Source of the DNA: a virus
Virus record (IMG/VR): IMGVR_UViG_3300021378_000078
Span: 1-35,560 of that record
DNA length: 35,560 bases
Direction: 5' to 3' (one strand)
The position numbers and the translations under genes are program-made. Below are positions 2 through 4,654 of the stretch, piece by piece. Within the stretch, counting starts at the first letter, position 1. Every line of letters begins with the position of its first letter. The notes below the pieces were generated by a model that worked only from the letters and a program-made list of their open reading frames with translations, was not told the DNA's origin and did not search any database.

Positions 2-205
2 AGAGGACTTAACGAAGAATCACAGTTTAATGTATTTTTACAAGATGGAGACTTAGTACTATACAGAAATGTTAATGGTGTTATAAGAGTTAAAATAGGT
101 GCAGCAGGTAATTTTGCATTAGAAGGTGTAACTCCAACTTGGGACGGACTAATAACTGGAAACGAGGGTGATGATATCCTCATTTATATAAATCAGGTGA
201 ATTAA
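2..205 (+). CDS. C-terminal fragment of an unidentified protein
   Basis: An open frame enters from the left edge and ends at TAA 203-205, directly abutting the ATG of the next gene. The visible 67 residues are rich in Gly, Asn, Asp and alternating hydrophobics, for example QDGDLVLYRNVNGVIRVKIG and a GNEGDD turn. This looks like a beta-structured domain such as those in phage fibres or secreted proteins. No catalytic motif is visible. The immediate junction with the curlin-like gene suggests co-translation with it. A curli accessory protein (CsgF/CsgG type) or a structural protein is conceivable from context, but the fragment does not show either, so I give no function. Confidence 0.6.
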   Translation, partial: RGLNEESQFNVFLQDGDLVLYRNVNGVIRVKIGAAGNFALEGVTPTWDGLITGNEGDDILIYINQVN

Positions 206-928
206 ATGAAAGAATTAATATTTATTTTAGGTATGTTATTATTACCATTAATGTGTTTTGCAGATGATAATACAATAACTATGGAACAGTCAGGAAATAA
301 TTTTCAGTTAGGAATTGACCAAATCGGACATAGTAACGAAATTAAAATGCTAGATAGTAATTCATATATTACTGCCACTAGTTTAGATATGTATTTAGTT
401 CAATACAACTCTCATTCTTCATATACCTATCCTAATAAAATTACATTTGATGAAATAAGTGGTGTAGGTAATCAAATGAAACTTGGTCAAGGTATTGTAT
501 GGAATACCTTAGATTCAGAAACTGATTTAGATTGGACTCATGATGGTAGTGAGGGCGGCGGTCACGAGATAGACATTACAATATATGGTGACTATAACGA
601 TTTAGCTGTTCAACAAACAAACCAACATAATGCATGGGACGGTCATGACTTTAATTTACATATGGCAGGTGACTATAATAAAGTCATAGTTAAACAGCAA
701 GGTAATGGTCCGAAAGATTTAGACCTTACAATATACAATGATAATAACGATGTGTATGTTCGTCAGAAAGGAACTAATACACCACATACTGCAAATATAA
801 CTCTTGATGGTTTATATGGAACAGACTTAACATTATTGCAATTTGGTACTAGTGGTACTCAGTCTTATACTATATCAGTCGATTGCATGACAGTCGGTGG
901 TTGTAGTACATCAGTAACTCAGGATTAG
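206..928 (+). CDS. Secreted curlin-repeat-like protein
   Basis: A 240-residue protein. The N-terminus is a clear Sec signal peptide: MKE, a hydrophobic stretch to about residue 18, then a CFA/DD cleavage site near residue 19-20. The mature part has curlin-style strands spaced by Asn/Gly turns. An early pair, MEQSGNNFQLGIDQIGHSNE, fits the QxGxxN...Q pattern of CsgA/CsgB minor repeats. Later strands read VQQTNQHN, VKQQGNG and VRQKGTN, each preceded by GDYND, GDYNK or NDNND turns. Curlins are exported subunits that form beta-solenoid amyloid fibres on the outer membrane. The gene starts one base after the previous stop and is followed by small membrane genes and a cyclase. A virion or receptor-binding beta-solenoid is an alternative. 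The repeat character is seen; amyloid formation is inference. Confidence 0.65.
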   Translation: MKELIFILGMLLLPLMCFADDNTITMEQSGNNFQLGIDQIGHSNEIKMLDSNSYITATSLDMYLVQYNSHSSYTYPNKITFDEISGVGNQMKLGQGIVWNTLDSETDLDWTHDGSEGGGHEIDITIYGDYNDLAVQQTNQHNAWDGHDFNLHMAGDYNKVIVKQQGNGPKDLDLTIYNDNNDVYVRQKGTNTPHTANITLDGLYGTDLTLLQFGTSGTQSYTISVDCMTVGGCSTSVTQD

Positions 929-933
929 TTATA

Positions 934-1014
934 ATGAATAATTATCATAGGTTTATTTGGCTAAAATATGGATGGCCTAGTAAGAAAGGATTATACGTGG
1001 ATATATACGCATGA
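934..1014 (+). CDS. 26-residue mini-ORF, translationally coupled
   Basis: The ATG at 934 lies five bases after the curlin-like stop, with an AGGA about ten bases upstream. The TGA at 1012-1014 overlaps the ATG of the next gene at 1011 (ATGA). The peptide is basic and aromatic, with Trp and Tyr residues and a PSKKG segment, and has no membrane span. It could be a real micro-protein or only a coupling leader for the following membrane protein. The support is position and overlap, not homology. Confidence 0.35.
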   Translation: MNNYHRFIWLKYGWPSKKGLYVDIYA

Positions 1015-1271
1015 GAACAGAATGCCCCGAAGAATATTACGAATGTCTAACTGAAGAAGAGTATGACGACATATTAGAACTCTTTGAAGAGAACGATATG
1101 GTTATGCCTGAATCTTTAGGTGATGTCGAAGCTGCATCTGATTTTGTTTGGCAAGTTCTCTTTCTATCACCAGTGGAGTTAATTTACATAGGTATATCAA
1201 TGTCAGTTCTGGCAACTTATGGATTATCTATTTACTATGTGTTTAAGTGGATACAAAGAAAGTTTAAATAA
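1011..1271 (+). CDS. Small acidic single-span membrane protein
   Basis: An 86-residue protein of no recognised family. Residues 1-40 are strongly acidic (EEYYE, TEEEYDD, LFEEND). One hydrophobic segment spans about 50-76 and is followed by a basic end (KWIQRKFK), which by the positive-inside rule predicts the acidic N-terminus outside or periplasmic and the C-terminus in the cytoplasm. It has Cys at residues 5 and 12. The gene is coupled to its neighbours on both sides: an ATGA overlap with the mini-ORF and a one-base TAATG overlap with the cyclase gene. A partner or adaptor for the membrane cyclase, or a holin/spanin-like protein, are both possible. The context favours co-function with the cyclase. 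Confidence 0.7.
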   Translation: MRTECPEEYYECLTEEEYDDILELFEENDMVMPESLGDVEAASDFVWQVLFLSPVELIYIGISMSVLATYGLSIYYVFKWIQRKFK

Positions 1272-3115
1272 TGAAACTAATAACCAGTATTTGGTCAACC
1301 ATAATATTATCAATTATCCTTATAGTTATAAGAATAAGTGACCCGTCTCTTGTTGAACAATTTAGATTAAATACCTTTGATGCCTTCATTGGTACTATAG
1401 AAGAGACCCAATCAAAAGAGATAGTTCTACTTAATATATCAGAAGAAACTTTAGACGAGTTAGGACAATATCCATTCCCTAGAGCAACATATGCTCAAAT
1501 GATTTCAGACTTACGTAATGCCAATGCAGGAATGATTGGATTTACAATTATGTTTCCTGAAGAAGATAGATTTGGAGGTGATGAAGTATTTGCCTCATGG
1601 ATAAAAGATAATGGTATTATACTAGCTCAAGATGCAGATAATTCTGGTAAGTCATCTACTGCTCCTTATGTTGGTTCAGCAGTCTTTGGTACAGGAGACC
1701 CCCTTAACTGGGCAATAAAATATAAGGGTCTTATTACTAATATACCACAGCTAGAAGAAGGAGCGTGGGGCCACGGACTTGTAAATGGTATGCCAGAGGT
1801 GGATGGGTTAGTAAGAAGAATTCCACTTATATCTCAAATTAATGGAGAGATGTATCCATCATTTGCATTAGAGGCTGTAAGAGTAATAGGCCAGAAATTA
1901 TCTTATACTATAAAGGTAAATGAAACGGGTATTGAAGAGATTATATTAAGGCCATTTAGAATATCTACTGATTCTAATGGTTCTATATGGATTAATCCTA
2001 ATTATAAATTTACGGAAATAAACTACGAGTCCAGTGAGTTACCGAATCTTCAAGGTCGTACTGTTCTTGTGGGTCTAACGGCAAAAGGTCTTGCTTCTCA
2101 GATACCAACTCCTCAGGGATTGAAGTCTGCACATCATCTACAAGCGGCCGCCATGCAAACGATTGTGAACCAGGATTCGATATCTCGTCCGATATGGGCA
2201 CCTTGGTTCGAATTAGTACTAATGGTAGTTGGTTCTCTTGCTCTTGTTCTTGCAGTTTACTATCTATCAATATATTATGGTGCTGCGATATTCTTAATCG
2301 TGACACTCGGTTACGGGAGCGCCGTTTATTATATTTGGAACGAATGGTATATTCTCCTAGATGTAAGTTATCCTGCAGTATTATTTATACTTCTTTTTAC
2401 TTCAGCCAGTTTTAATAACTTCTATAAACAGTTTATGTTAAGACAACAAATAAAGAAACAATTTGGTACTTATCTATCACCCGATATGGTATATATGTTA
2501 CAGAAAGACCCATCACTATTAACATTGGGTGGAGAGAGAAAAGAGATGAGCTTTCTCTTTATGGATATAGTGGGGTTTACTCCTATATCAGAACACTATA
2601 AAAACAAGAACGACCCAGAGGGTTTGGTCATACTTATTAATGAATTCTTAGATGCTATGACTAAAATTATACTAAATAATAATGGAACAATAGATAAATA
2701 TATGGGCGATTGTATTATGGCCTTCTGGAACGCTCCATTAGATTGTCCCAATCATGCAGAACTGGCCGTCAAATCAGCAATAGAGATAGAGATTAAAACA
2801 GATGAACTCCGAAGACGATATAGCGAGCAGGGTTTACCCGCCATCAATGTTGGAACTGGTGTCAATACTGGTGATTGCATTGTTGGTAATATGGGTAGTG
2901 AGTCTCGGTTTGATTACTCTGTCATCGGAGACGCAGTCAACCTCGCGGCAAGGCTCGAGGCTAAAGCAGCTAGACACGAGTTGCTTGAATACAAAACCAT
3001 CATCTCCTCATTCACAAAAGACCAACTGCCAGAAGAATATAAGTGCAAAGAAATAGGCAGTATTAATGTAAAGGGTAAGGAAGAACTTATAACCATTTAT
3101 TCTCCTAAGTTATAA
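1271..3115 (+). CDS. CHASE2-domain class III adenylate cyclase
   Basis: A 614-residue membrane protein expected to make cAMP from ATP. An N-terminal span (about 6-21) is followed by a CHASE2 sensor region (about 25-300, with the FDAF, YPFPRATYAQ, GFTIMFPE and DGLVRRIPL signatures). Three closely spaced spans follow (about 312-335, 338-355 and 362-380), then a linker and a class III cyclase domain (about 420-614). Catalytic residues are in place: metal-binding D432 in FMDIVGFT and D480 in KYMGD, purine-selecting K476, and transition-state N557 and R561 in VNLAARLE. Ser550 sits where class IIIa enzymes have Asp, which fits class IIIb. The ATG overlaps the previous stop by one base. CHASE2 cyclases are ordinary bacterial signalling proteins, and one inside a phage operon is unusual. 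The ligand is unknown. Confidence 0.93.
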   Translation: MKLITSIWSTIILSIILIVIRISDPSLVEQFRLNTFDAFIGTIEETQSKEIVLLNISEETLDELGQYPFPRATYAQMISDLRNANAGMIGFTIMFPEEDRFGGDEVFASWIKDNGIILAQDADNSGKSSTAPYVGSAVFGTGDPLNWAIKYKGLITNIPQLEEGAWGHGLVNGMPEVDGLVRRIPLISQINGEMYPSFALEAVRVIGQKLSYTIKVNETGIEEIILRPFRISTDSNGSIWINPNYKFTEINYESSELPNLQGRTVLVGLTAKGLASQIPTPQGLKSAHHLQAAAMQTIVNQDSISRPIWAPWFELVLMVVGSLALVLAVYYLSIYYGAAIFLIVTLGYGSAVYYIWNEWYILLDVSYPAVLFILLFTSASFNNFYKQFMLRQQIKKQFGTYLSPDMVYMLQKDPSLLTLGGERKEMSFLFMDIVGFTPISEHYKNKNDPEGLVILINEFLDAMTKIILNNNGTIDKYMGDCIMAFWNAPLDCPNHAELAVKSAIEIEIKTDELRRRYSEQGLPAINVGTGVNTGDCIVGNMGSESRFDYSVIGDAVNLAARLEAKAARHELLEYKTIISSFTKDQLPEEYKCKEIGSINVKGKEELITIYSPKL

Positions 3116-3301: not shown

Positions 3302-3724
3302 TTGCCAATTACTATGATTAAAGGTCGTATAGCCAAAAAGAAATCCATAGAAAAGTATGTTGAAAACCTATGTAAGGAACTGGGTATTAATCGCATGTGG
3401 TCTAAAGCTATCTTTATAAAGTTTAAAACTACCCTAGATAATCAGGCAGAAGGTTTATGTTGGGGTGACCCATCAGAAGGATATGTTGATATCTCTATCG
3501 CAAGAACCTCTATAGGCAAAAAGATGACCATGAAATCAATGATGCAAACTCTTGCTCACGAAATGGTTCATGCCAAACAGTACTTACGTGGAGAACTATG
3601 TGGTTACAGTATGTCATGGAAAGGTAAGAAGCCTCGTAATTATAAATATGAAAATGCTCCATGGGAAAGAGAAGCTTATAAATTAGAGGCAGAACTCTAT
3701 TCAAAATGTTGGCCGATAGATTAA
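3302..3724 (+). CDS. SprT-like zinc metallopeptidase
   Basis: A 140-residue protein with a zinc-peptidase HExxH motif, HEMVH at residues 86-90, within LAHEMVHAKQYL. A downstream WEREAY segment (about 121-126) probably supplies the third, acidic ligand. Compact SprT/WSS-type metallopeptidases of this size are common in phages, but their substrates are mostly unknown. The TTG at 3302 is chosen as the start because a GAGGAG sits five bases upstream; the alternative ATG at 3314 would be twelve bases further. The gene follows promoter P1 and the 30-residue ORF. A non-catalytic role cannot be excluded, but the motif is intact. Confidence 0.8.
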   Translation: MPITMIKGRIAKKKSIEKYVENLCKELGINRMWSKAIFIKFKTTLDNQAEGLCWGDPSEGYVDISIARTSIGKKMTMKSMMQTLAHEMVHAKQYLRGELCGYSMSWKGKKPRNYKYENAPWEREAYKLEAELYSKCWPID

Positions 3725-3842: not shown

Positions 3843-4373
3843 ATGAAACTATTAATAAATACCCAATACAAAGAAAACTATGCTTGGCATAACGAAGATT
3901 ATGTCCATGGGGTTTCAGAGCCGTATTGGAAATATAAAGGTGGTTCTGCTTATGTTCTTGAGAACGTAGTCAGTCCGGTTGAAACTGGAGACGCATACGA
4001 TATGCTTCATAAGTATTATCCAGAAGTTGTGGATGCAATTTCAATGTCAGATGATGCTCAACAAGAGTATATCATTGATGTTCAACTCTTGGCAGATTCT
4101 GCCCCTCTGGCAATTGAGGAATGGGATAATCCTTATTTCATCAATGTATCTGGAAGTATTACTTGCGCAAGGACTGTGGCCAATGGAGAGTTTGGTTGGA
4201 TGAGGAAAGAAATTCTTTCTAAGAATGAGAAATGGACAATGTTACCTAATCAAGAAAGGGATAACTATACGGTCACCTTCATTATGTCAGATGGCTCTCA
4301 GTTACTCGGTCATCAAGAGCTCAAGGAATACTTAGATGCTATTGATAACGAGGTTACAGGAGTTGCAGTATAA
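3843..4373 (+). CDS. Conserved-looking phage protein of unknown function
   Basis: A 176-residue soluble protein with no signal or membrane segment. It starts MKLLINTQYKENYAWHNEDY and is acidic and rich in Tyr and Trp. I do not recognise a catalytic motif. The ATG follows a CGGAGAAA ribosome site and promoter P2, and the stop overlaps the next start by one base (TAATG), so it is co-translated with the small membrane protein. It belongs to the early-type accessory block of small genes. The function is unknown. Confidence 0.75.
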   Translation: MKLLINTQYKENYAWHNEDYVHGVSEPYWKYKGGSAYVLENVVSPVETGDAYDMLHKYYPEVVDAISMSDDAQQEYIIDVQLLADSAPLAIEEWDNPYFINVSGSITCARTVANGEFGWMRKEILSKNEKWTMLPNQERDNYTVTFIMSDGSQLLGHQELKEYLDAIDNEVTGVAV

Positions 4374-4654
4374 TGGCAAGGACTAAGGGTAAGACACTTG
4401 ATTGGTATGTTAAGTGGGTTGCTTCAGTAATAGTATTATGTGCAATGTCAGTTCGTGGAGTTCCAGAATTTCAATTCATAGACCTATCGTTATCGATAGT
4501 TGGAATAGCCTTATGGTTATGGGTATCTATCTTATGGGAAGACAGAGCACTCATCCTACTGAACGGTGCAGGTCTTGTATTACTTATCAATAACTTAGTA
4601 AAATACATTATAGAAAATGAATTACTATTTAGATTGATTAGCATGTTTACATAA
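4373..4654 (+). CDS. Small multi-span membrane protein (DUF6552-like)
   Basis: A 93-residue protein with a short basic N-terminus (MARTKGK), hydrophobic segments at about 12-28 and 35-56, and a third at about 60-80. The pattern DWYVKWVAS...FIDLSLSIVGIALWLWVSILWEDRALILLN resembles a small family of phage and marine bacterial membrane proteins that I associate with DUF6552; that name is from memory and not certain. It overlaps the preceding stop by one base. A role at the membrane early in infection is inference. Confidence 0.7.
   Translation: MARTKGKTLDWYVKWVASVIVLCAMSVRGVPEFQFIDLSLSIVGIALWLWVSILWEDRALILLNGAGLVLLINNLVKYIIENELLFRLISMFT

Follow-up and report, generated by a model that had tools for sequence, protein, structure and literature searches.

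The window, i.e., the whole stretch of 35,560 bases analysed here and the entire IMG/VR record, encodes a predicted CHASE2 membrane adenylate cyclase; judged from gene order, this is the gene with which a viral curli (type VIII secretion) cassette of wide occurrence normally ends. A preliminary description had reported this enzyme with D432, K476, D480, N557, and R561 intact, and had considered such a sensory enzyme unusual on a virus. The five residues are exactly in place, S550 can be added to them, and the phage location and full CHASE2-cyclase architecture are confirmed by the phage flanks, Pfam, and AlphaFold2. The gene is, instead of an isolated oddity, the usual last member of a published cassette that is found in cultured phages too. 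Little has been said about cyclic-nucleotide synthases of phages, and the present enzyme is maintained, with predicted activity, across a widespread marine phage group.

A curli operon has been documented in pelagimyophages (PMC7029224, 2020) and in phage Melnitz (PMC9004378, 2022), and an adenylate cyclase and FecR have been named as parts of the viral curli cluster (PMC9599517, 2022). In the latter work, CsgE is absent from the cluster, the cyclase tree points to Alphaproteobacteria, and metatranscriptomic expression evidence is given for "all of these", a wording that is ambiguous regarding the cyclase; the word CHASE is absent from that paper. No enzyme test of a phage cyclase was found in the literature. 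Nor were a Caulobacteraceae cassette, the FecR/curlin C-terminal motif, curlin2 swapping, or the missing cNMP-binding domains described below found in the literature on these phages.

Architecture and Conservation of the Cyclase

Both Pfam matches of the cyclase ORF (CHASE2 and Guanylate_cyc, Table 1) lie far above the cut-offs. The AlphaFold2 model (mean pLDDT 86.7) displays a helix (residues 7-23), the alpha/beta CHASE2 domain, three further helices (310-331, 334-359, and 366-401), and the cyclase domain. Together, Pfam and AlphaFold2 thus reveal the layout of a CHASE2 sensor cyclase: an N-terminal membrane helix, CHASE2, more membrane helices, and a catalytic domain. The CHASE2 domain would be periplasmic and the cyclase domain cytoplasmic.

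Table 1. Features at the start of the window, with the evidence for each.
Feature	Positions	Strand	Basis
FecR-domain protein, C-terminal 67 residues, cut by the contig end; last motif IYINQVN (curlin-like)	2..205	+	98.5% identity to residues 303-369 of the FecR of contig L012
curlin2 (second curlin-repeat protein), 240 aa, signal-peptide-like start; candidate fibre subunit	206..928	+	Pfam Curlin_rpt E 2e-5; homologous to counterparts in other phage cassettes
86-aa ORF, acidic N-terminus, hydrophobic stretch at the C-terminus	1011..1271	+	ORF reading; 14 homologue matches, from a minority of the cassettes
Predicted CHASE2 membrane adenylate cyclase, ATG start, 614 aa	1271..3115	+	ORF reading, Pfam, residue check, AlphaFold2, conservation
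CHASE2 domain (residues 16-326), predicted periplasmic sensor	1316..2248	+	Pfam PF05226 E 6e-38; AlphaFold2
Class III cyclase catalytic domain (residues 424-608)	2540..3094	+	Pfam Guanylate_cyc PF00211 E 4e-19; residue check

The catalytic domain harbors the two Asp (D432 and D480, metal), the Lys and Ser/Thr (K476 and S550, base-selecting), and the Asn and Arg (N557 and R561, transition state) that characterize class III cyclases, a set that we take to be IIIb-like. From K476, S550, and the relatives, the predicted product is cAMP, made from ATP. The catalytic domain matches solved structures of bacterial adenylate cyclases. One of them, the proven adenylate cyclase CyaB of P. aeruginosa (PDB ID: 3r5g), has the same catalytic-domain fold, with 36% identity; it is chromosomal, in contrast with the phage-borne enzyme, and its sensor region differs from that of the phage cyclase.

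The six residues are all present in 76 of 77 phage homologues and in 72 of 72 bacterial CHASE2 cyclases, and no broken copy occurs among the full-length phage cyclases. The exception is the cyclase of Melnitz (L003:7932-9983), in which S550 is replaced by D and N557 by S, and which has a C-terminal extension; given these substitutions, its specificity or rate may be different. Codon analysis yields a whole-gene omega of ~0.08-0.14 where dS is unsaturated, indicative of purifying selection, and the catalytic domain shows zero amino-acid changes relative to the closest relative at a pS of 0.20. Of note, synonymous divergence between the window gene (1271-3115) and that of contig L012 (4104-5948) is 0.03 for the CHASE2 part but 0.20 for the catalytic part, a jump that suggests recombination within the gene.

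The Curli Cassette

In curli systems, the outer-membrane pore is made of CsgG and CsgF, and the fibres are made of curlins. Since the contig starts inside the FecR gene, the upstream curli genes are missing from the window, which contains the FecR end, a curlin, and the cyclase, the start codon of the latter being overlapped by the stop of the 86-aa ORF; csgF and csgG would lie beyond the contig start. They are found in contig L012, near-identical around the cassette, in the order csgF (partial)-csgG-curlin-FecR-curlin-ORF-cyclase, in which the FecR protein has a Pfam FecR match. In all 48 related viral loci that extend 4.5 kb or more upstream, the cyclase closes a csgF-csgG-curlin-FecR-(curlin)-cyclase array; conversely, it lies downstream of csgG in all 42 csgG loci that extend 6 kb or more on that side. 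Both figures apply to this lineage, as the two sets consist of the closest relatives and have some contigs in common.

The cultured phages HTVC008M and Melnitz possess the same csgF-csgG-curlin-FecR-curlin-cyclase order. Homologues of the cyclase are encoded by Pelagibacter phage HTVC008M (AGE60353.1, 45%) and Methylophilales phage Melnitz (QZI94833.1, 35%), over 96% of the sequence. The pelagiphage curli cluster cyclase (PMC9599517) is of the same family and phage type as that of the window and, judged from the relatives, probably of the same gene order; the window differs from the cultured copies by a 55-65% divergence, by upstream genes cut by the contig end, and by the extra 86-aa ORF between curlin2 and the cyclase.

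The curlin2 gene stands apart from its surroundings. The DNA of the window and of L012 is 94.7% identical before position ~342 and 97.9% identical after 937, with no alignment in between, and the two curlin2 proteins (window 206-928, L012:3073-3774) share 40% identity despite neighbours at 95-98%. This looks like local swapping of the fibre-subunit gene between near-identical phages. Furthermore, of 27 non-overlapping nearest cassette pairs, 18 have curlin2 as their least conserved gene, and such swapping suggests that the pressure to change falls on the fibre itself more than on the machinery.

Phage Origin of the Contig

Around the cyclase, the window carries genes for a helicase loader, an ssDNA-binding protein, baseplate, tail tube, and head closure proteins, and a DNA end protector; from this gene content, it is a genuine fragment of a T4-like myophage. 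A chimera of host and phage DNA, the outcome named beforehand as fatal to the phage-borne reading, was looked for and not found: contig L012, from a different sample, is colinear with the window (97.9% identity over 8.2 kb, including the cyclase), and the gene order is common to cultured phages, which together rule it out. By their baseplate protein, the closest cultured phages are Melnitz, HTVC008M, and Mosig (38-39%), unlike the DNA end protector, for which it is C48C1; the two proteins thus point to different phages and to no single host for the window phage. Matches from Acinetobacter "phages", named cyaA, cover the catalytic domain alone and may be chromosomal; they were set aside. On the 3' side of the cyclase, the window encodes a small putative metallopeptidase (3302-3724, under the Pfam cut-offs) and, at 4373-4654, a membrane protein of the DUF6552 family that weakly resembles SemiSWEET.

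Cellular Relatives

In the final tree, built without divergent cyclase paralogues, 84 sequences fall into a single clade with a support of 0.999; it comprises the phage copies, the misbinned phage-like contigs, L089, and L086 from Caulobacteraceae, with L089 branching first and L086 next. Adjacent to this clade are alphaproteobacterial CHASE2 cyclases. An earlier tree placing divergent paralogues inside the phage clade was discarded, this placement being probably due to long-branch attraction. Five candidate bacterial relatives (L084, L085, L087, L088, and L091, from MAGs labelled Flavobacteriaceae, Saprospirales, Sphingobacteriales, Synechococcus, and Pelagibacter) fall within the phage clade and were taken as probable misbinned phage contigs.

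The same explanation was considered for L086, given its high similarity, and was overturned by its chromosomal flanking genes. In this Caulobacteraceae genome (G029; L086/L282), a csgF-csgG-curlin-curlin-FecR-cyclase operon is found among genes for glycosyltransferases, a prolyl oligopeptidase, and a TonB receptor, and the locus looks chromosomal. A second Caulobacteraceae genome (G166, L281) contains the same operon with a 93% identical cyclase, next to methylmalonyl-CoA mutase, acyl-CoA dehydrogenase, amidohydrolase, and TetR genes. As far as gene order tells, these two genomes are carriers of a cellular version of the phage curli-FecR-cyclase cassette. This cellular operon offers a bacterial system for probing what CHASE2 and FecR sense.

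More generally, the alphaproteobacterial CHASE2 cyclases (e.g., of Thalassospira and Caulobacteraceae) resemble the phage enzyme in architecture, in catalytic residues, and, for some of them, in an adjoining FecR gene. In contrast, they are chromosomal, share 30-42% identity with it, usually have no curli genes nearby, and belong to hosts with many cNMP-binding proteins. A contig from a Rickettsiales MAG (L089:3-7718) carries a phage-type exonuclease and a CHASE2 cyclase, the latter preceded upstream by a large ORF that contains repeats and looks like a surface protein, and by a TolC-type outer membrane efflux protein; there are no curli genes there, as if the cyclase were paired with another export system.

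FecR as a Candidate Partner

A survey of 964 kb surrounding 72 bacterial CHASE2 cyclases returned 14 FecR finds. Eleven of these 14 directly adjoin the cyclase on its upstream side, in loci devoid of curli genes; this is a plain count, in which 6 of the 11 are from Thalassospira and hence not independent. At L111, FecR and the cyclase are adjacent; the distance computed for this pair is spurious, as the ORF starts overlap. For many bacterial CHASE2 cyclases, there is no FecR in the vicinity.

Within the viral cassettes, FecR shares a C-terminal signature with the curlins: [IV]xQ followed by at most 7 residues ends 119 of 119 viral FecR proteins, 103 of 105 curlin2, and 106 of 118 curlin1, versus 21 of 792 other ORFs. 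This ending resembles the last strand of a curlin repeat. The shared motif points to a FecR that is part of the fibre or its cap, or that takes the same export route as the curlins. The FecR structure model is of moderate confidence (pLDDT 70.6); a fold search with it returned one weak match of note, the cell-surface signalling domain of the PupR anti-sigma protein (E 8e-4), and no curlin fold.

Proposed Function and the Missing Receiver

We give about an even chance to a reading in which the cyclase, as the terminal gene of a phage csgF-csgG-curlin1-FecR-curlin2-(small ORF)-cyclase operon, senses fibre export or assembly via FecR, with cAMP as output. During infection, the operon would equip the surface of the host with a CsgG/CsgF pore and with fibres of the curlin type. 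FecR, secreted and residing in the periplasm or at the base of the fibre, would report subunit export or assembly to the periplasmic CHASE2 domain, and the cyclase would set cytoplasmic cAMP to match. Past domain identification, we infer every step: the cAMP product, the CHASE2-FecR contact, the sensing of assembly, and the downstream effects. This assembly-sensing reading draws on the domains and residues, the adenylate-cyclase fold, purifying selection, the 48/48 and 42/42 linkage, the bacterial FecR-CHASE2 cyclase pairing, the Caulobacteraceae cassettes, and the shared [IV]xQ motif. The moderate FecR model and the many CHASE2 cyclases with no FecR nearby count against it.

So does the lack of a recognised receiver for cAMP. 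The cNMP-binding domain PF00027 was detected in none of 28 phage records, several of them fragments, including the window, HTVC008M, and Melnitz. It is present in 4 of 79 Pelagibacteraceae genomes, some of which are incomplete, a Crp-type HTH exceeds the cut-off in one of 79, and the RecA control was found in 76 of 79; this is the host family of HTVC008M, and the host of the window phage may differ. Class III cyclases occur in three of these 79 genomes, one being under the cut-off and another being a phage-like contig. As judged from these domain searches, the phage signal appears unreadable by any recognised route in the known host family, and receptors lacking PF00027 may exist. Any job of the cAMP in hosts like Pelagibacter would apparently have to bypass CRP, so that looking for the receptor is worth the effort. 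In a bolder reading, which we consider rather less likely than not, the phage installs a fibre apparatus that has an envelope sensor and a second messenger of its own; in a host family with almost no class III cyclases and no recognised cAMP receptors, its signal would act through an unrecognised class of receptor, from phage or host.

These counts weigh on the idea, raised in the preliminary description, that the phage reprograms host metabolism through cAMP; the cyclase would lift cAMP so that a host CRP-type regulator is bound and host transcription altered. An intact catalytic site agrees with it, PF00027 proteins are present in all 25 of the bacterial genomes drawn from those carrying CHASE2 cyclases or near them, and the window phage could infect a host that has the receptor; yet with PF00027 missing from 75 of 79 Pelagibacteraceae and from the 28 phage records, this idea is weakened and we regard it as unlikely. 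The absence of a receiver from the 28 records and in the Pelagibacteraceae would fit a cyclase that arrived with a bacterial curli-FecR-cyclase operon, as the same gene order in Caulobacteraceae chromosomes might indicate, and was retained mainly because the operon moves and is expressed as a unit, its cAMP having little effect. Strong purifying selection, complete catalytic residues in all but one of the phage copies, and the fact that the gene was never lost from the 42 csgG loci, although genomes of this small size should not keep genes that serve no use, make such a passenger quite unlikely.

Lysis timing and anti-defence roles, also put forward beforehand, found no direct support. The cyclase might disturb a nucleotide-signalling defence such as Pycsar, or time lysis together with CsgGF, for which a lysis role of the pore was suggested in Melnitz (PMC9004378). 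The catalytic domain does score against models of the Pycsar cyclase PycC, as any class III cyclase may, but the three neighbouring cassette proteins scanned gave no PADLOC defence-family match, the phage record holds no cNMP-binding effector, and the constant partners are curli genes; we deem either role very unlikely. With neither a cNMP-activated effector in the record nor a PADLOC match in these three neighbours, identity as a Pycsar defence cyclase was rejected.

As a separate observation, two Caulobacteraceae loci (L284:6285-13720 and L285:1208-8578) encode an ORF of 815 and 814 aa, respectively, with a cNMP-binding domain, 2.7 kb upstream of a CHASE2 cyclase and on the same strand, possibly a receptor encoded beside its synthase.
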